Assembly (NCBI GenBank): GCA_017634975.1
Contig: JAGBMJ010000014.1
Coordinates: 1 to 55,672, forward strand
Direction of reading: 5' to 3'
Length of the DNA: 55,672 nt
Origin: Lachnospiraceae bacterium
GTDB taxonomy: Bacteria > Bacillota > Clostridia > Lachnospirales > Lachnospiraceae
In this document: positions 2,337-44,308 of the stretch, piece after piece
How the letters are laid out: every line of letters begins with the position of its first letter
How positions within the stretch are numbered: position 1 is the first letter of the stretch
Position numbers and translations under genes: made by a program
Notes under the pieces: model-generated
Seen by the model: only the letters and a program-made list of their open reading frames with translations
Databases searched by the model: none
Told to the model about the DNA's origin: nothing

Positions 2337-2340
2337 GTAG
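2309..2340. repeat. perfect inverted repeat at the leader-repeat junction
   Basis: Arms CTACAGTAGGGCT (2309-2321) and AGCCCTACTGTAG (2328-2340) are exact reverse complements of 13 bp around the loop TTCCAG. The last four bases of the right arm (GTAG, 2337-2340) are the first four bases of the first CRISPR repeat. The site is therefore placed where Cas1-type integrases cut. It may be a recognition hairpin, an operator or a transcription feature. Confidence 0.85.
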
Positions 2341-3645
2341 AAAAGAGATACCGCCCGATTAGGGCATTGACACATTGTTTCCAAAAATCCATTTGATTAT
2401 GTCGTTATAGTAGGTAGAAAAGAGATACCGCCCGATTAGGGCATTGACACACGATTATCTTTCGTATTAATCAGATTGTAAATATTGTATCGTAGAAAAG
2501 AGATACCGCCCGATTAGGGCATTGACACAAACCTACGAAGAACTCAAGCATTGTACAGCAATCTCCGTAGAAAAGAGATACCGCCCGATTAGGGCATTGA
2601 CACTCATGATATTTTGAGGAAGTTGATTCATTTCCTATTGTAGAAAAGAGATACCGTCCGATTAGGGCATTGACACGGATCATAATGCATAATCTTTTGT
2701 GGGTATTCTTGTAAGTAGAAAAGAGATACCGCCCGATCAGGGCATTGACACCACCTTTACCCCATTTTTATCGGGGCCCTTTCTGTAATAGTAGAAAAGA
2801 GATACCGCCCGATTAGGGCATTGACACACTTTCGGCTGCCTCTGTTGCTTCGACGTATTGTGTAAAAAAGAGATACCGCCCGATTAGGGCATTGACACCC
2901 GACATCTTTCCTTCGTCTTTTCGTTTCTTAAGATGTAGAAAAGAGATACCGCCCGATTAGGGCATTGACACATAATTACTGTTTCTTTTACTTCCGGCTT
3001 ATTTACAGTAGAAAAGAGATACCGCCCGATTAGGGCATTGACACTTATCGTCGAACCATTTTGTGGTTCCAAAATATCTTTGTAGAAAAGAGATACCGCC
3101 CGATTAGGGCATTGACACACTGCTTTAACTACGTAACCATTTACATACTGCTTACCGTAGAAAAGAGATACCGCCCGATTAGGGCATTGACACTTACCAT
3201 TAGCGTAGGCTTTCGCTGTGGGGATGCTTCAGGTAGAAAAGAGATACCGCCCGATTAGGGCATTGACACGCTTCGTAATTAGCCTTTTCATTCTCTGCTT
3301 TGGTTTTCGTAGAAAAGAGATACCGCCCGATTAGGGCATTGACACTAATAAGGTTCATCATATGAACCTCCTTTCTCCCTAACGTAGAAAAGAGATACCG
3401 CCCGATTAGGGCATTGACACAGAGGATTAGGTGTTTTTACTCCTTTCTGAGATATGTAGAAAAGAGATACCGCCCGATCAGGGCATTGACACCACCTTTA
3501 CCCCTTTTTTATCGGGGCCCTTTCTGTAATATAGTAGAAAAGAGATACCGCCCGATTAGGGCATTGACACCTCTAGAGATGACATCACTGCCCTTGTTGT
3601 TTGCACCAGTAGAAAAGAGAAACCGCCCGATCAGGGCATTGACAC
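2337..3645 (+). CRISPR. CRISPR array, 18 repeats of 37 nt and 17 spacers
   Basis: The repeat begins GTAGAAAAGAGATACC, contains the stem GCCC-GATTA-GGGC and ends GGGCATTGACAC. Repeats start at 2337, 2414, 2492, 2567, 2640, 2715, 2791, 2862, 2935, 3008, 3082, 3157, 3233, 3309, 3384, 3456, 3534 and 3609. Spacers are 34-41 nt. Variants: repeat 5 has one C to T change in the stem (kept as a G-U pair); repeats 6, 16 and 18 have GATCAG in place of GATTAG; repeat 8 begins GTAAAAAAG; repeat 18 has a second change. The degenerate last repeat places the leader at the left, giving plus-strand transcription and an ATTGACAC 5' tag, close to the ATTGAAAC tag common in type III (and some type I) systems. The variable spacer length also fits type III. 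The effector type cannot be proven because no effector genes are in the window. Confidence 0.97.
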
Positions 3646-13387: not shown

Positions 13388-13477
13388 AAGCTCTGTGCAA
13401 ATCGTAAAAATTTCAACTTTTTCAATAGAATTTCCTATGTAATTTTACCCTCCGAAAAATTATTATGATTTTACCAA

Positions 13478-13619
13478 GGGAGGTGCGATTGTAACGAAGT
13501 TACAATTTTGCATCGCACCGACCGAACGGACAGGATGCCGAAGGAATCCTGTCAATACACAGGGAGGTGCGATTATGACAAAGTCGTGCCACGCATACCA
13601 AAAGGAGGAAACAAAATGA
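13478..13619 (+). repeat. structured Shine-Dalgarno-carrying repeat, locus A (one full and one partial copy)
   Basis: Unit A1 starts at GGGAGGTGC 13478 and unit A2 at 13562 (84-bp period). In A1, GGTGCG (13482-13487) can pair with CGCACC (13514-13519). Inside this, ATTGTAAC-GAA-GTTACAAT (13488-13506) forms a hairpin, and GACAGGAT (13529-13536) pairs with ATCCTGTC (13546-13553). The units at 41017-41207 have the same layout with compensating base changes. A2 keeps the first hairpin (ATGAC-AAA-GTCGT) but then runs into a normal AAAGGAGG site for the binding-protein gene. Confidence 0.75.
13575..13619 (+). CDS. 14-residue leader peptide of repeat locus A
   Basis: The ATG at 13575 follows GGGAGGTGC with good spacing and reads MTKSCHAYQKEETK before TGA 13617-13619. 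The first residues MTKS match the small frames of repeat locus B. The stop overlaps the start of the sugar-binding lipoprotein (ATGA), so its translation could be coupled to it. The preceding copy A1 is in frame but has GTA where an ATG would be. Whether the peptide matters, or only its translation, cannot be told. Confidence 0.4.
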   Translation: MTKSCHAYQKEETK

Positions 13620-14674
13620 AAAGAAGAGCAGTTGCATTATTGAGCGCAGCAATGATGACAATCTCGATGGCGGCTTGCGGTGGAAACACCAACCCGGCAC
13701 CGACAACTACCAGCAGTTCAAGTTCCGGCAGTTCTACTGCAGCAAGCAGCACCGGTACCGAAACTTCTGCACCGGCAGCATCCGCTGACGGCGGACTGAT
13801 CAAGGTCGGTATCATCAACAACGATCCGAACGAGTCCGGTTATCGTACCGCAAACGACAGAGACCTGCAGAATATGTTCAAGGCAGAAAACGGCTACGAA
13901 GCAAAGTTTGCATACAGCTTAAAGAATGATGAGCAGATTCAGGCAGCGCAGGGCTTCATCACCGATGAAGTGGATTACCTGCTTCTGTCCGCAGCAGATA
14001 CCGCAGGCTGGGACGGTGTTCTGAAGGATGCACAGGCAGCCGGCGTAAAGGTCATCCTGTTTGACCGTACCATCGATGCCGATCCGTCTCTGTACGAAGC
14101 TTCCATCGTATCCGATATGAACGCAGAAGGTTCTAAGGCAGTAGACTGGCTGGCAAGCCAGAACCTGGAGGAATACAACGTGATCCACATCCAGGGTGTG
14201 ATGGGGTCCGCAGCACAGCAGGGCCGCAGCGGTGCACTGCAGGCAAAGGCAGATGCAGAAGGCAACTGGAACATCGTACAACAGCAGACCGCAGAGTGGA
14301 ATGCGGAGAAGGCACAGCAGATCGTGCAGTCCGTGATCGATGCAAAGACTCCGTTCAATGTAATCTATGCAGAGAACGACGATATGGCAAAGGGCGCAGT
14401 TGCAGCTCTGGATGCAGCAGGTATCTCTCACGGCGTGGGTAAGGATGTCATCGTAATGGGCTTTGACTGCAACAAGTGGGCTCTGGAAGAGCTGCTGAAG
14501 CAGAACTGGAACTATGACGGACAGTGCAACCCGTTCCAGGCAAGCTACATTGATAACATCATCAAGACGCTGGAGAGCGGCGGTTCCCTCAGCGAGAAGA
14601 CCATCATCATGGATGAGAAGGGCTTTGATGCAACCACGATCACCCAGCAGGATGTAGATGATTACGGAATTTAA
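13616..14674 (+). CDS. YtfQ-like sugar-binding lipoprotein 1
   Basis: Extracytoplasmic ligand-binding protein of the ribose/galactose (PBP type 1) family, 352 aa from the ATG at 13616, which follows AAAGGAGG. The lipoprotein signal has lipobox SMAAC, and a serine/threonine-rich tether (about 22-60) precedes the binding domain. Visible motifs are IKVGIINNDPNESGYRT, AQGFITDEVDYLLLSAADTA, GWDGVLKDAQAAGVKVILFD and NVIYAENDDMAKGAVAALDA. The order kinase-binding protein-ATPase-permease-permease matches ytfQRT-yjfF (furanose sugar uptake), and the protein resembles YtfQ in its QGVMGSAAQQGRS segment. It is the first transporter gene and is separated from the ATPase by a 185-bp gap with a hairpin, which fits higher expression of the binding protein. 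The sugar is unproven. Confidence 0.9.
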   Translation: MKRRAVALLSAAMMTISMAACGGNTNPAPTTTSSSSSGSSTAASSTGTETSAPAASADGGLIKVGIINNDPNESGYRTANDRDLQNMFKAENGYEAKFAYSLKNDEQIQAAQGFITDEVDYLLLSAADTAGWDGVLKDAQAAGVKVILFDRTIDADPSLYEASIVSDMNAEGSKAVDWLASQNLEEYNVIHIQGVMGSAAQQGRSGALQAKADAEGNWNIVQQQTAEWNAEKAQQIVQSVIDAKTPFNVIYAENDDMAKGAVAALDAAGISHGVGKDVIVMGFDCNKWALEELLKQNWNYDGQCNPFQASYIDNIIKTLESGGSLSEKTIIMDEKGFDATTITQQDVDDYGI

Positions 14675-39244: not shown

Positions 39245-41035
39245 ATGATGAAAAACGAACCGACCAACCGTCCGAAAAACCATATTGCCTGGCTTTGGGA
39301 AAATATGAAAGGCATGCGTGTCTTTTACATTATTGCTATGCTCGGGACCGTCCTTTATAACATCATGCAACTGACGGTACCGTATTTTTCGGGACGCATT
39401 GTGGATATTTTCCTGAGCGGTGAGGATGCGGCAGCCAATATCGCGACCAAACAGGATCTGTTCTATCAGCTGCTGGGAGCGATGGTGGGCTTTACCCTGC
39501 TGCGTACGCTTTTGGTATATCTGGACTGTATGGCTTACGAACATGTTTCCCAGCGCACGCTCTATAAGGTGCGTAATTTTCTCTATGACAAGATCCAGCG
39601 TCAGGATATGACTTTTTACAGTACTTATCGTACCGGTGATCTGATGACTCGTGTGACCGGCGATCTGGATGCCCTGCGCCATATGATCGCCTGGATCGTG
39701 CGCGCGATCATCGAATCGTTTTCACTGTTTACGGCTACCGCAGTATGCTTCTTTGTCATTAACTGGAAGATGGCATTATCCCTGCTGGCTGTAGCACCGC
39801 TGGTATTTATCGCGATCTTCTTTTTCCGCAAACGTGTGGCACCGATGCATGCAAAACTGCGTGAGAAATTTGCCCAGATGAATACCATTGCCCAGGAAAA
39901 CATTGCCGGTAACCGCGTGGTCAAGGCCTTTGTCCGCGAGGAATATGAAGAAGATAAATTCGATAAAGCCAATCAGGAGTATCGCGACACCAATGTGGAG
40001 ACCGCTATGATGTGGGTGCGTACACAGCCGGTGGTCGAGATCTTTGTCGATCTGCTTCCGGTCGTTATGCTGGCAGTAGGCGGTATTTTCCTGATCCGGG
40101 GAGAGATGACGATGGGCGAATATGTGACGATCTCCGGTCTGATCTGGGCGATCGCAAACCCCATGCGTATGATGGGAAATATCATGAACGAGCTGCAGCG
40201 TTTCAAGGCAGCAGGCGATAAAGTAATGGAGATCTACTATTCCGAGCCGAAGATCCGTGATAATCCGGGATGCATTGAGAAAGAAGGGCATTTCGACGGA
40301 AAGATCGAGTTCCGCAATGTATCTTTTCATTATGAAGACAGTGATATGCCGGTACTCAACGATATTTCCTTTACGATCGAGCCGCAGCAGACGGTGGCGA
40401 TCATGGGAGAGACCGGCTGCGGCAAAACCACGCTGATCAACCTGATTCCGCGTTTTCATGAAGTGAGCAGCGGGGAGATCCTGATCGATGGGGTGCCGGT
40501 GCAGGATTATTCGCTGCATAGTCTGCGGAAAAATATCGGTTTGGCAAACCAGGATGTGCTTCTGTATTCCGATACGATCGAAGGCAACATCGCATACGGT
40601 GATGTGCATCTGTCCTTTAAGGAAGTAACGAAGAGTGCAAAGCTTTCGGCAGCAGCATCGTTTATAAACCGTATGCCGGACGGCTATGATACGGTGGTCG
40701 GTGAGCGCGGCGTGGGCCTTTCCGGCGGACAGAAACAGCGTATCTCTCTGGCCAGGGCCCTGGCGGTGAAACCATCGATCCTGATCCTGGACGATACTAC
40801 TTCGGCTGTGGATATGGAAACGGAAAAAGAGATCCAGGATTCCTTAAGGCATTTGGATTTCCCTGCGACCAAGCTGATCATTGCGCAGCGTATCTCTACG
40901 GCAAAGACCGCGGACAGGATCATGATGATGCGGGACGGGCATATCGTAGAAAGCGGTACCCATGAGGAATTGGTCGCTCTGGGCGGCTATTACAAAGAGC
41001 TGGTTGATTTACAGGAGGGAGGTGCTCAAATATGA
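39245..41035 (+). CDS. ABC exporter half-transporter with degenerate catalytic site (heterodimer subunit 1)
   Basis: A 596-aa protein with six transmembrane helices (about 20-310) and a nucleotide-binding domain. Walker A GETGCGKTTLI has K394, the signature is VGLSGGQKQRISLARAL, and Walker B reads LILDDTTSAVD, where D517 replaces the catalytic Glu. That replacement is the hallmark of the non-catalytic site of heterodimeric exporters such as TM287/288, BmrCD and LmrCD. The last residues, LQEGGAQI, are encoded by the start of a repeat unit, and the stop overlaps the start of a small frame (ATGA at 41032). Its partner gene follows after the repeats. Likely substrates are drugs or lipids. None is indicated by sequence. 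Confidence 0.92.
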   Translation: MMKNEPTNRPKNHIAWLWENMKGMRVFYIIAMLGTVLYNIMQLTVPYFSGRIVDIFLSGEDAAANIATKQDLFYQLLGAMVGFTLLRTLLVYLDCMAYEHVSQRTLYKVRNFLYDKIQRQDMTFYSTYRTGDLMTRVTGDLDALRHMIAWIVRAIIESFSLFTATAVCFFVINWKMALSLLAVAPLVFIAIFFFRKRVAPMHAKLREKFAQMNTIAQENIAGNRVVKAFVREEYEEDKFDKANQEYRDTNVETAMMWVRTQPVVEIFVDLLPVVMLAVGGIFLIRGEMTMGEYVTISGLIWAIANPMRMMGNIMNELQRFKAAGDKVMEIYYSEPKIRDNPGCIEKEGHFDGKIEFRNVSFHYEDSDMPVLNDISFTIEPQQTVAIMGETGCGKTTLINLIPRFHEVSSGEILIDGVPVQDYSLHSLRKNIGLANQDVLLYSDTIEGNIAYGDVHLSFKEVTKSAKLSAAASFINRMPDGYDTVVGERGVGLSGGQKQRISLARALAVKPSILILDDTTSAVDMETEKEIQDSLRHLDFPATKLIIAQRISTAKTADRIMMMRDGHIVESGTHEELVALGGYYKELVDLQEGGAQI

Positions 41036-41124
41036 CGAAGTCATATTTTTATATTGCACCGACCGATGGGGCAGGATTGAGAAGCAATCCTGCCAATACG
41101 ACTAAGGGAGGTGCCCAAATATGA
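41032..41124 (+). CDS. 30-residue small protein of repeat unit B1
   Basis: ATG 41032 to TGA 41122-41124. It begins MTKSYFYIAPTDGAG and ends NPANTTKGGAQI. It starts within the stop of the ABC gene (ATGA) and its stop overlaps the start of the next small frame (ATGA). A GGAGGGAGG site is 8 bases upstream. The core IAPT...G.R.NP.NT is also readable in repeat locus A at 13500-13560. It is rich in small residues, with no membrane segment. It may be a real peptide or only a means of passing ribosomes down the message. Confidence 0.45.
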   Translation: MTKSYFYIAPTDGAGLRSNPANTTKGGAQI

Positions 41125-41207
41125 CGAAGTCATATTTTATCATTGCACCGACCGAAAGGGCAGGATTGAGAAACAATCCTGCTAATACGACTAAGGGAGG
41201 GATCTGA
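41121..41207 (+). CDS. 28-residue small protein of repeat unit B2
   Basis: ATG 41121 to TGA 41205-41207. It begins MTKSYFIIAPTERAG and ends NPANTTKGGI. It differs from the B1 peptide at only a few residues. The stop is one base before the ATG of the second ABC gene, and the GGGAGG inside its last codons (41195-41200) is that gene's ribosome binding site. Confidence 0.45.
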   Translation: MTKSYFIIAPTERAGLRNNPANTTKGGI

Positions 41208-41208
41208 G

Positions 41209-42975
41209 ATGGCGCGCAATACATTCAAAGAAGACGAAAATCTCGAAGAACCGTTTAACGTCAAACATCTGCTCAGAGCTTCCGGCTATATCAGGCGGTA
41301 TGCGAAACCGATGCTGATCGCACTGGGACTCAGCGGTCTGGGAGGAGCCTTTGGCTATCTGGCACCGATGATCATTCAGCGTGCGCTGGATGTTGCGATC
41401 CCGGCAGCGGATACGGATCAGCTGTTTATGCTGGTCGGGATACTGGTATTTGTTTATGGTCTGAGCGTGATCTTCAACCGGATCCGCAGCGGTCTGATGG
41501 TAAAGGCCAGCCAGAATATCATTTATGATATCCGTAAGGACATATTTGGACATCTGCAGAAGCTGCCGTTCCAGTATTATGATGACCGTCCGCATGGCAA
41601 GATCCTGATCCGTGTGGTAAACTACGTAAACTCGGTGTCGGATATGCTTTCCAACGGTCTGATCAATATTGTGCTGGAATGCTTCAACCTGTTGTTCATC
41701 ATTATCTTTATGTTTATCGTGGATGTGCAGCTGGCTTTGGTGGTTATGTGCGGTGTGCCGGTACTGGCGGTGTTTATGTTCTGGATCAAGAATAAGCAGC
41801 GCAAAGCGTGGCAGGCGGTATCCAATAAGAGTTCCAATTTAAATGCATACCTGCAGGAGAATATTACGGGGGCGCGTATTACACAGATCTTCGCGAGGGA
41901 AGATGAAAATGCAAAAACCTTTGCAGGTCTGTCGCAGGACTGCCGCAAGACATGGATGACGGCGGTGCGCTATACCAATCTGGTATGGCCGGGAATTGAT
42001 ACGATCTCGGTTTTTGTACGGGCATCAATCTATCTGTTCGGTATCCTCTTGTTCGGAACCGGACAGAAGAGTCTGGGAACCGTGGTTGCGATCTCCAGTT
42101 ATGCTTCGTTTTTCTGGCAGCCGATCATGAACCTTGGAAATATCTTCAACAACTTTATCAACAACGTGGCCTATCTGGAGCGTATCTTTGAGACCATTGA
42201 CGAGCCGGTAGAGATTGCGGATAAAGAGGGCGCCGAAGATATCGGTGAAGTGCTCGGTAAAGTGGAATTTGACCATGTGACCTTCTCCTACGACGGAGAG
42301 GAAGAAGTGCTGAAAGATGTATCCTTTACGGTAGAGCCCGGGCAGAGCATCGCTCTGGTGGGACCGACCGGTGCCGGCAAGAGCACCATTGTAAATCTGC
42401 TGTCCCGTTTCTATGATGTACAGAAGGGATCGATCCGGATCGACGGTAAGGATATCTCCGAAGTGACGCTCGGATCGCTCCGTTCCCATATGGGCATTAT
42501 GATGCAGGATCCTGTGATCTTTTCCGGAACGGTGGAGGACAACATCCGCTACGGTAAGCTCGATGCGTCTTCACCGCAGGTGCGGGAGGCCGGTAAGATC
42601 GTCTGTGCCGATGCGTTCATCCGCCGTATGCCGGAGGGTTACCGTACAGTAGTGAAGGAACATGGTTCTTCGTTAAGTCAGGGACAGAAGCAACTGATCT
42701 GCTTTGCGCGTACGGTGCTTTCGGATCCGTCCATCCTGATCCTCGACGAAGCAACCTCCAGTATCGATGTGCAGACGGAACGCGCCCTGCAGCAGGGACT
42801 GAACAGTATGGTGGAGGGGCGCACCTCCTTTATCATTGCCCATCGCTTAAGTACCATACGCAACTGTGACCGTATCCTCTATATCGATAACGGCGGCATC
42901 GCCGAAAGCGGCACACATGATGAGCTGATGGCAAAGAAGGGATACTATTACAAATTGTATACTGCACAGGGATAA
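41209..42975 (+). CDS. ABC exporter half-transporter with intact catalytic site (heterodimer subunit 2)
   Basis: A 588-aa protein with six transmembrane helices and a nucleotide-binding domain. Walker A is GPTGAGKSTIV (K391), and Walker B ILDEATSSID has the catalytic E514. The signature is SLSQGQKQLICFART, where Q replaces the second G, as often seen in the partner subunit of heterodimeric exporters. The intact Glu here with the Asp in subunit 1 gives the usual one-active-site heterodimer. Translation depends on a GGGAGG contributed by the repeat that separates it from subunit 1. Confidence 0.93.
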   Translation: MARNTFKEDENLEEPFNVKHLLRASGYIRRYAKPMLIALGLSGLGGAFGYLAPMIIQRALDVAIPAADTDQLFMLVGILVFVYGLSVIFNRIRSGLMVKASQNIIYDIRKDIFGHLQKLPFQYYDDRPHGKILIRVVNYVNSVSDMLSNGLINIVLECFNLLFIIIFMFIVDVQLALVVMCGVPVLAVFMFWIKNKQRKAWQAVSNKSSNLNAYLQENITGARITQIFAREDENAKTFAGLSQDCRKTWMTAVRYTNLVWPGIDTISVFVRASIYLFGILLFGTGQKSLGTVVAISSYASFFWQPIMNLGNIFNNFINNVAYLERIFETIDEPVEIADKEGAEDIGEVLGKVEFDHVTFSYDGEEEVLKDVSFTVEPGQSIALVGPTGAGKSTIVNLLSRFYDVQKGSIRIDGKDISEVTLGSLRSHMGIMMQDPVIFSGTVEDNIRYGKLDASSPQVREAGKIVCADAFIRRMPEGYRTVVKEHGSSLSQGQKQLICFARTVLSDPSILILDEATSSIDVQTERALQQGLNSMVEGRTSFIIAHRLSTIRNCDRILYIDNGGIAESGTHDELMAKKGYYYKLYTAQG

Positions 42976-43054: not shown

Positions 43055-44293
43055 TTACTGATTAAGTGAAGATTGTTTCAATTTTTGATTTTCTGCTATA
43101 GCATTCTGGTACTTTGCCTGCAGTTCTTTGAATTTTGTCTCCAGATCCTGATTATGAGCCTTCAGATCCTGATTATGAGCCTCGAGATCCTGATTATGAG
43201 CTTCAAGTTCCTGATTATGAGCTTCGAGATCCTGATTATGAGCCTTCAGATTCTGATTATGAGCCTTCAGATCCTGATTATGAGCCTCGAGATCCTGATT
43301 ATGAGCCTCAAGCTGCTGCTTTTGAACCTCCAAGGTCTGTTTTTGGGCTTCCAGTTCTTTCTTCTCCTCTTTCAATACAGAAACCTGGTTTGTCATATCT
43401 TCTACCATATAATTTATGGTATTTTTATCCAAAAATGCAATCATTTCCGAATACATACGGATCACCTCCTCCGGTTTGCGTCGGTATTCTGCGATATCAT
43501 GATAATACTCCCGAAACTGCGGGAACTTATCAATCAATGTCAGGATATCCTGGGCACGCGCGGACGAAAAAAACGTAAGCCAGGCATCCTGAATGTTGCT
43601 GATACCTTCATTTTGCAGTTTTTTTCGGAAAGTGTCAAGAGAGATGTAAGTGATATTCTGCAGGGCTTTCAGATTCACACCGCTGTCATAGGTGATGTTC
43701 CTTCTGTGGATATAGTGATCCCGGACGTTTTTTACGAGAAATTCTCCGGAACTTTTATCCATTAGTATGATGATATAGACCGGAGGCATATCCTCATATT
43801 GAAATCGTTTTCCATGGAGATTTTTCATACGCGTGTACTGCCGCATGATCAAATCTGCTGCATATACCTCGCTTCGCTCTCCGGGAAAATAAAGTCCAAT
43901 TTTCTGCATTTCCAGATTGACGAGTTTATGATCGCCAATCTCTATCAACAGATCTACAATTACCATACTGCTGTCATCGCAGAGTGGCTGACCTTCTCGT
44001 TCAATGATTTCCATGATCTTTACTTTTTCACCTAAAACAGCGCTCAGGAAGCTTTCTAATCGTTCCGGGTGTTCATAAGGAGAGAGTATCTTCTTGAAGA
44101 AATTATCATAAGTGATCAACAGACCGGATTGTCCCATAAAGAAATTAAGCAGGTCTTGGCGTTGTTCTGCTGTGAATTCTTCAAAGATCTTCCATGTCTG
44201 ATCATCCTTCATGATCAGGCGAATGGCATCCTCTTTGCATAATGCTTTGCCAAAGATTTCTGTTAAAGTGTTTTCAGTTATCATTTTTTTCAT
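43055..44293 (-). CDS. Rpn-family PD-(D/E)XK nuclease with heptad-repeat tail
   Basis: About 412 aa from ATG 44293, which has AAAGGAG in front. The central part matches the PD-(D/E)XK nuclease-family transposase/Rpn group: LITYDNFFKKILSPYEHPER, VDLLIEIGDHKLVNLEMQK (putative D...ExQ active site), YAADLIMRQYTRMKNLHG and PPVYIIILMDKSSGEF. Members are recombination-promoting nucleases or defence-related proteins, often in many copies. The C-terminus is a long coiled coil with eight nearly perfect LEAHNQD-type heptads, encoded by a 21-bp tandem repeat. The tail length is probably variable between strains. It stands alone in the minus orientation. Confidence 0.85.
   Translation of the reverse strand: MKKMITENTLTEIFGKALCKEDAIRLIMKDDQTWKIFEEFTAEQRQDLLNFFMGQSGLLITYDNFFKKILSPYEHPERLESFLSAVLGEKVKIMEIIEREGQPLCDDSSMVIVDLLIEIGDHKLVNLEMQKIGLYFPGERSEVYAADLIMRQYTRMKNLHGKRFQYEDMPPVYIIILMDKSSGEFLVKNVRDHYIHRRNITYDSGVNLKALQNITYISLDTFRKKLQNEGISNIQDAWLTFFSSARAQDILTLIDKFPQFREYYHDIAEYRRKPEEVIRMYSEMIAFLDKNTINYMVEDMTNQVSVLKEEKKELEAQKQTLEVQKQQLEAHNQDLEAHNQDLKAHNQNLKAHNQDLEAHNQELEAHNQDLEAHNQDLKAHNQDLETKFKELQAKYQNAIAENQKLKQSSLNQ
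43145..43312 (-). repeat. eight tandem 21-bp units encoding L(E/K)AHNQ(D/E/N) heptads
   Basis: The 21-bp unit reads on the plus strand as ATCCTGATTATGAGCCTC plus three bases and is repeated eight times without gaps. Units differ at the E/K and D/E/N codons only. Each unit keeps the frame and one coiled-coil heptad. Confidence 0.95.
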
Positions 44294-44308
44294 AAGACTC
44301 CTTTCCAT

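Follow-up and report, generated by a model that had tools for sequence, protein, structure and literature searches.

Tandem GA-cis RNA units between the halves of an ABC exporter, and their probable nature as a mobile repeat placed at Shine-Dalgarno sites

In the 55,672-nt stretch of a Lachnospiraceae genome analysed here (the window), two head-to-tail 89-bp units (41016 to 41193), 91% identical when aligned with each other, sit between the two halves of an ABC exporter (Table 1), and TRF describes the same region (41016 to 41200) as a tandem repeat with a period of 89, 2.1 copies, 92% matches and a score of 319. The order of elements at the junction is ABC1 stop-ATGA-30-aa open reading frame (ORF)-ATGA-28-aa ORF-ABC2, with ABC2 starting at 41209, one base past the stop of the second small ORF. 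The C-terminal codons of ABC1 (...GGAQI*) and its stop fall within repeat unit 1, the TGA being part of an ATGA. The layout proposed by the initial annotation, with its two 89-bp units, its chain of overlapping frames (30 and 28 aa) separated from ABC2 by 1 bp and an ABC1 tail encoded by the repeat, is therefore borne out by the sequence, the ORF calls and their coordinates, and TRF. In relatives that do not carry the repeat, ABC1 ends with GG[IV]-type final codons followed by TGA at the equivalent place, as read from the junctions, and the final codons of the second small ORF (GGA GGG ATC TGA) are the counterpart of that ABC1 end. Elsewhere in the window, a 21-bp tandem repeat (9.2 copies, 43139 to 43332) lies within the 3' part of a 417-aa ORF on the minus strand (43055 to 44308) and encodes an AHNQDLE-type repeat, and a CRISPR-like array at 2337 to 3645 has a 37-bp repeat (GTAGAAAAGAGATACCGCCCGATTAGGGCATTGACAC) in 18 copies, separated by spacers of about 34 to 41 bp.

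Table 1. Features of the ABC exporter junction and of the third GA-cis site in the window (SD, Shine-Dalgarno sequence).
Feature	Position	Strand	Basis
GA-cis copy upstream of periplasmic-binding-protein gene (third copy)	13475..13563	+	RF02987, 49.2 bits
Further GA-cis unit, truncated, ahead of the downstream gene's own SD	13562..13599	+	By eye; nearest relative has a shorter remnant there
ABC exporter half 1 (ABC1)	39245..41035	+	ORF call; ABC_membrane + ABC_tran
GA-cis unit 1	41016..41104	+	TRF; Rfam RF02987
GGGAGG, SD-like 5' strand of hairpin 1 in unit 1	41017..41022	+	Sequence; predicted pairing
Small ORF1, 30 aa, predicted; ATGA overlaps with ABC1 stop and with ORF2 start	41032..41124	+	ORF call
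GCACC, 3' strand of hairpin 1 in unit 1, followed by GACC	41056..41060	+	Sequence; Rfam alignment
Hairpin 2 of unit 1 (GGCAGGATTG / CAATCCTGCC)	41070..41094	+	Sequence; fold
GA-cis unit 2	41105..41193	+	91% identical to unit 1; Rfam RF02987
GGGAGG of unit 2	41106..41111	+	Sequence; predicted pairing
Small ORF2, 28 aa, predicted	41121..41207	+	ORF call; sequence comparison
GGGAGG, SD of ABC2, immediately 3' of unit 2	41195..41200	+	Sequence; same place in empty sites
ABC exporter half 2 (ABC2)	41209..42975	+	ORF call; ABC_membrane + ABC_tran

The region from 41010 to 41250 (241 nt) is predicted to fold far better than expected from its composition (z = -6.5 against 200 shuffles, none of which folded as well), and in the minimum-energy fold units 1 and 2 pair with each other, not each alone. 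Pairing of GGTGC with GCACC and an ATG enclosed in the stem are predicted in the tandem units, with a pairing probability of 1.00 for the ATG and of 0.46 to 0.67 for the GGGAGG of unit 1, the latter varying with the stretch folded. Thus, the suggestion that an SD-like site pairs with GCACC while the ATG lies in a stem holds, as a prediction, for the repeat units; the SD of ABC2 itself has no downstream GCACC partner.

Different from the initial view that no described family has this design, the repeat is an ordinary member of the GA-cis RNA family (Rfam RF02987), a two-hairpin element of unexplained function, to which both tandem units and a further copy at 13475 to 13563 belong. GA-cis was reportedly described in 2017 among 224 candidate RNAs, with copies in Coprococcus eutactus, and its name implies cis-regulation of the downstream gene. 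The window was scanned against Rfam 15 and its own genome was scanned separately, the curated cut-off of RF02987 being 34.7 bits. The window scan returned 49.2 bits for the third copy, 36.0 bits for unit 2 (41103 to 41193) and 26.2 bits for unit 1 (41014 to 41098); the own-genome scan returned 36.3 bits for unit 1 (41014 to 41104) and 29.4 bits for unit 2 (41103 to 41179), so that each tandem unit exceeds the cut-off in one of the two scans. Both conserved hairpins are present in the window copies according to the Rfam alignments, with hairpin 2 of unit 1 unaligned in the window scan. The third copy is 65% identical to the tandem units in the alignment, has no ATG in hairpin 1 and precedes a gene with a Peripla_BP_4 domain (ATG at 13616, ending at 14674). 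Of the four units originally counted, three are full GA-cis units and the fourth, at 13562 to 13599, is truncated. What our copies share with the family as catalogued is a sequence and structure match over the cut-off, the two hairpins, a position upstream of genes and multiple copies per genome; what is added here are the tandem arrays, the presence or absence at SDs between relatives and the ORFs made by the repeat. GA-cis is also named in a table of PMC11701678.

The conservation of the structure was examined in 66 copies of 80 to 93 nt, less than 90% similar and at most four per genome, including two copies from the window. In this set, 11 of the 12 consensus pairs vary on both sides, and 91.8% of cells are paired, compared to 64.2% after shuffling and at most 54% when the partners are slid. 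Furthermore, 89% of 131 elements have a fold z-score below -2 (30 shuffles each). The SD-like 5' strand joins the helix via a tandem G-A step, GGGAGG occurring with GACC and AGGAGG-like strands with GACGA; the table of 5' against 3' strands reads 13, 4, 2 and 46 (Fisher p = 1.3e-8) and covers 65 of 93 non-redundant copies, other strands being present in 28. In three loci (L278, L285 and L291), the helix forms between GGTCGG or GGCTGG on the 5' side and CCGACC or CCAGCC on the other, so that it is kept without GGAGG; in L291 an SD-like GGAAGG is still present just outside the helix. The loop of hairpin 1 is of the C-GNA-G type in 81 of 98 parsed copies. In the nearest relative (L164 and L294; genome G426), hairpin 2 is extended in two GA-cis copies by nested hairpins that resemble each other; given these inserts, hairpin 2 seems able to host other modules.

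GA-cis is patchily distributed within one bacterial family. With the own genome counted throughout, RF02987 matches were found in 34 of 397 genomes of the same family (29 above the cut-off), in 10 of 35 genomes of the genus (8 above the cut-off) and in 3 of 398 genomes drawn from the phylum, all 3 belonging to the same family. The highest numbers of matches per genome were 44 (G220), 20 (G083) and 19 (G208). From the matches listed, 147 places were taken, 146 of them with a fetched region (all except G220:C115). Seven of the 24 genus copies outside G000 were added to the counts of ORFs and upstream frames and 17 were left out, as they were weak, lay at contig ends or had the larger-repeat form (G402, G423 and G424). 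The 22 copies of G083 and G142, mostly in larger dispersed repeats or away from starts, were set apart, a split made post hoc. GA-cis cores within longer dispersed repeats, mostly not before gene starts, were seen in G424 (L275, L281, L284, L287 and L290) and at the G083 and G142 loci, and they represent a second genomic form of the family. Contig ends lie within or beside GA-cis copies at L067, L082, L112 and L275, as expected if the repeats break assemblies, and copy numbers may therefore be lower bounds. One copy, L072 (G000:C133), is identical to L069 (G193:C23) in a genome of another genus; since G000 is listed with 7.46% contamination, its contig 133 may be foreign.

In most genomes surveyed, GA-cis often lies just 5' of the SD of the downstream gene, in the coding direction, and many copies are in tight operons. 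In particular, 67 of 116 elements are followed within 45 nt by an SD and by the start of an open frame of 80 codons or more, compared to 3 of 116 in a strand control, for which the test was repeated from the 5' end of the element on the other strand; 11 copies were dropped because their flanks were short. Among the copies of G083 and G142 set apart, the figures are 4 of 19 and 0 of 19, which brings all copies together to 71 of 135 against 3 of 135. For the 124 other copies, a simple gene finder showed a same-strand start no more than 45 nt away in 72 cases, a more distant one in 29 (some of which are inner units of arrays) and a next gene on the opposite strand in 16, with 4 other arrangements and 3 contig ends. 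In 55 of 64 cases, the first base of the downstream SD falls between -4 and +7 nt relative to the element end. On the other side, a frame of 60 codons or more runs into the element from upstream in 78 of 131 copies; its stop is in the first 5 bases of the element in 28 of these and 17 to 22 nt into it, at or near the hairpin ATGA, in 20. A Pfam scan of 25 downstream genes, 23 of them from a list of 36, gave a mixed picture (no family in 4 of the first 20): ribosomal protein L2, a chaperonin, an SRP-type GTPase, two tRNA synthetases, ribulose-phosphate epimerase, ABC and MFS transporters, dihydrodipicolinate synthase and others. A riboswitch of the ligand type was rejected, the downstream genes being too diverse.

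Comparison of orthologous sites in close relatives revealed presence and absence of the element at three places. At the ABC junction, the element is absent from L165, L166, L232, L236 and L244 (ABC1 identity of 95, 94, 88, 83 to 84 and 79%), and in these junctions the SD of ABC2 lies inside the last codons of ABC1. The junction stretch of 205 nt in the window corresponds to 27 nt in L166 and L236 and to 28 nt in L165 and L232, so that the surplus of the window over L166 and L236 (178 nt) is exactly twice 89 nt. The insert is bordered by GGGAGG on either side, the 5' copy pairing within the element. The nearest relative (L164, 97% identity, apparently G426) carries at the same junction a single 149-nt element with a longer hairpin 2. 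A second site is filled in G426 and empty in G415 (flanks 95 and 98% identical), G000 and G423; about 7 nt of the empty site are absent from the filled one, which does not correspond to a clean duplication. In another genus, G208 has an array before a gene, where the 3 congeners read, of 4 found, show a short junction without the element. At the 13475 site of the window, the element is absent from G415 and represented by a remnant alone in the nearest relative. The consensus ends as read by eye, AGGAGG... and ...GATACCT, are approximate and, as they stand, not inverted repeats. Truncated trailing units were noticed by eye at 13562 to 13599, in L291 and in the G208 array.

These data lead us to consider the tandem GA-cis pair as probably a small structured mobile repeat that landed at an SD and is tolerated as translation signals are kept on both sides. 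GA-cis would spread by using or requiring an SD as landing site; thanks to an SD on its 5' side and another at its 3' edge, and to stop codons located at its edge or within the hairpin ATGA, the gene before it could terminate and the gene after it could initiate. We propose that the element persists because these SDs and stops keep both neighbouring genes translatable. Extra units would derive from slippage or from unequal exchange or recombination, and the 28- to 30-aa ORFs would be a by-product, one that at this junction could incidentally bring ribosomes to the start of ABC2. A mobile repeat compatible with operon function was one of the two options of the initial annotation, and at the sequence level the empty sites, the copies in relatives and the SD and start placement relative to the strand control fit it. 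Counting against this reading are the 16 of 124 next genes on the other strand, the 29 of 124 starts more than 45 nt away and the roughly 7 nt absent from the filled G426 site.

The other option was a translational relay, in which ribosomes leaving ABC1 would restart at each ATGA, unfold successive units and so reach ABC2, the small ORFs having been selected for local coupling. At this locus, the period of 89, which equals 2 modulo 3, yields the exact ATGA overlap, and the ATGs are located in predicted stable stems; moreover, the single unit of L164, longer by 60 nt (a multiple of three), retains a frame whose 48-aa ORF also stops at the ABC2 start, one further case favouring a relay here, with about a one-in-three chance of staying in frame. 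Coupling through unfolding or reinitiation has a general precedent in the mechanisms treated in PMC12548453. However, the ATGA-ORF-ATGA chain occurs in only 1 of the 12 tandem arrays examined, that of the ABC junction, and the hairpin ATG is absent in 3 of the 12. An SD-spaced ATG is found in the first 45 nt of 108 of 131 copies (at positions 14 to 19 in 100 of them), or 68 of 93 non-redundant copies, and the hairpin stem would hide it (mean pairing 0.93, n = 99). The ORFs made by the repeat have lengths of 1 to 79 aa, apart from two longer ones (197 and 433 aa); where the next start is known (84 ORFs), the stop lies within the element in 47, no more than 40 nt from that start in 22 and at other places in 15. 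The frames open to the element end, of 102, are frame 0 in 41, +1 in 16 and +2 in 51, with no preferred frame, and across the GA-cis copies we found neither a conserved open frame nor a conserved overlap of start and stop. As lengths, end points and frame openness all vary, there is no sign of peptide conservation, and a coding role of the small ORFs was set aside as unsupported. Besides, the ABC2 SD, with a pairing of 0.62 to 0.85 against 0.27 to 0.95 in four empty sites, is not clearly more hidden than where the element is missing. It follows that a relay is doubtful as an explanation of the repeat, and as its design it is not supported, in view of the arrays without the chain, the variable ORFs and the helices kept without the GGAGG strand (L278, L285, L291) or without the hairpin ATG (the 13475 copy). 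The further copies in related genomes, whose absence would have refuted the initial annotation, do exist, and their positions are neither random nor devoid of structure; it is the conservation of frame that is lacking. A local role of the repeat in coupling ABC2 to ABC1 is possible.

A stronger competitor of the mobile repeat, although we regard it as rather improbable, is a cis-regulatory RNA, whose hairpins would act as a sensor of some signal or as a protein-binding site and so adjust how the gene downstream is translated, with a sharper response from tandem units. The strong covariation, the coding orientation and position before starts, and the inclusion of an SD-like strand and an ATG within the helix are what such an RNA would display, and the common ATG fits a constraint at the RNA level; the 68 of 93 non-redundant copies with an SD-spaced ATG suggest a constraint for which a purely selfish element would have no use. 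Hairpin 1 also contains more GU pairs than AC mismatches (21 vs. 6, of 1505 pairs), as selection on RNA rather than DNA would produce, but this excess is weak, being reduced to 12 vs. 6 at pairs flanked by standard pairs (p = 0.24) and to 17 vs. 15 when summed over the twelve consensus pairs. Against regulation speak the functional mixture of the downstream genes, many of them housekeeping, the location of the downstream gene's own SD 3' of the element, where it is not the conserved pairing partner, and the patchy and polymorphic presence. Gain and loss of a cis-regulatory RNA by recombination could account for part of the presence and absence pattern, which counts against the mobile repeat. 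The weaker ATG counts, the copies without a nearby start and the balanced GU and AC count slightly lower our confidence in the mobile repeat.

As to how a mobile GA-cis would move, REPs carry GTAG at the foot of their hairpin, and the SD-like GGAG at the mismatched hairpin foot of GA-cis resembles it, which brings to mind a REP-like element mobilised in trans by a Y1 (TnpA/RAYT) transposase. Nevertheless, PF01797 (Y1) was not detected at E <= 1e-5 in 11 of 18 draft genomes, including G220 with its 44 copies, G208, G129, G142, G168, G426 and G180 (as drafts, these are not proof of absence), and no GA-cis was found around Y1 genes in 29 loci, about 1.5 kb on each side. On these two grounds, Y1-dependent mobilisation was rejected, and we consider it most improbable. 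Among viral contigs, 80 loci from the listed matches to a pattern of 16 fixed letters gave 0 matches to the GA-cis model at E <= 0.01; these pattern matches therefore look like chance, and the result says little on phages overall.

Loops of the C-GNA-G type are unusually stable in DNA. It is possible to hypothesize, albeit at odds of well under even, that GA-cis is a new kind of mobile element that recognises the SD itself, inserting in one orientation 5' of it and leaving an SD on each side, that spreads independently of Y1, perhaps via extra-stable single-strand hairpins and template switching, and that is not primarily a regulatory RNA.

Empty sites together with SD placement suggest that GA-cis, listed as an RNA of unknown function, should be re-read as a mobile element editing operon junctions, among which would be those before the genes for ribosomal protein L2 and a chaperonin. 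If this is true, GA-cis would be a natural case of an element targeting translation signals, and it would call for caution with catalogues of structured RNAs, as strong covariation could stem from a mobile repeat. As far as the open-licence papers searched show, the evidence that GA-cis is mobile and located at SDs is new.

Among known repeats, the BOX, RUP and SPRITE elements of Streptococcus pneumoniae are likewise small, structured, interspersed repeats judged to be parasitic, found in or beside operons and in some cases creating transcribed ORFs; unlike what is seen for GA-cis, no fixed-orientation SD targeting is reported for them in the parts of PMC3049150 consulted. REPs depend on Y1 transposases, different from GA-cis, for which Y1 was not found in several GA-cis-rich drafts. 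ERIC, NEMIS/Correia and REP/REPIN share with GA-cis their nature of hairpin repeats, and the portions of PMC3116915 and PMC3049150 at hand report that ERIC, Correia and BIME elements in operons affect mRNA; different from ERIC, Correia and REP elements, GA-cis is oriented and often located at an SD. A parallel in placement is offered by the TAACTGA repeats of Beggiatoaceae, which, according to PMC4679880, are oriented like GA-cis, lie directly upstream of start codons and precede genes with no common function.
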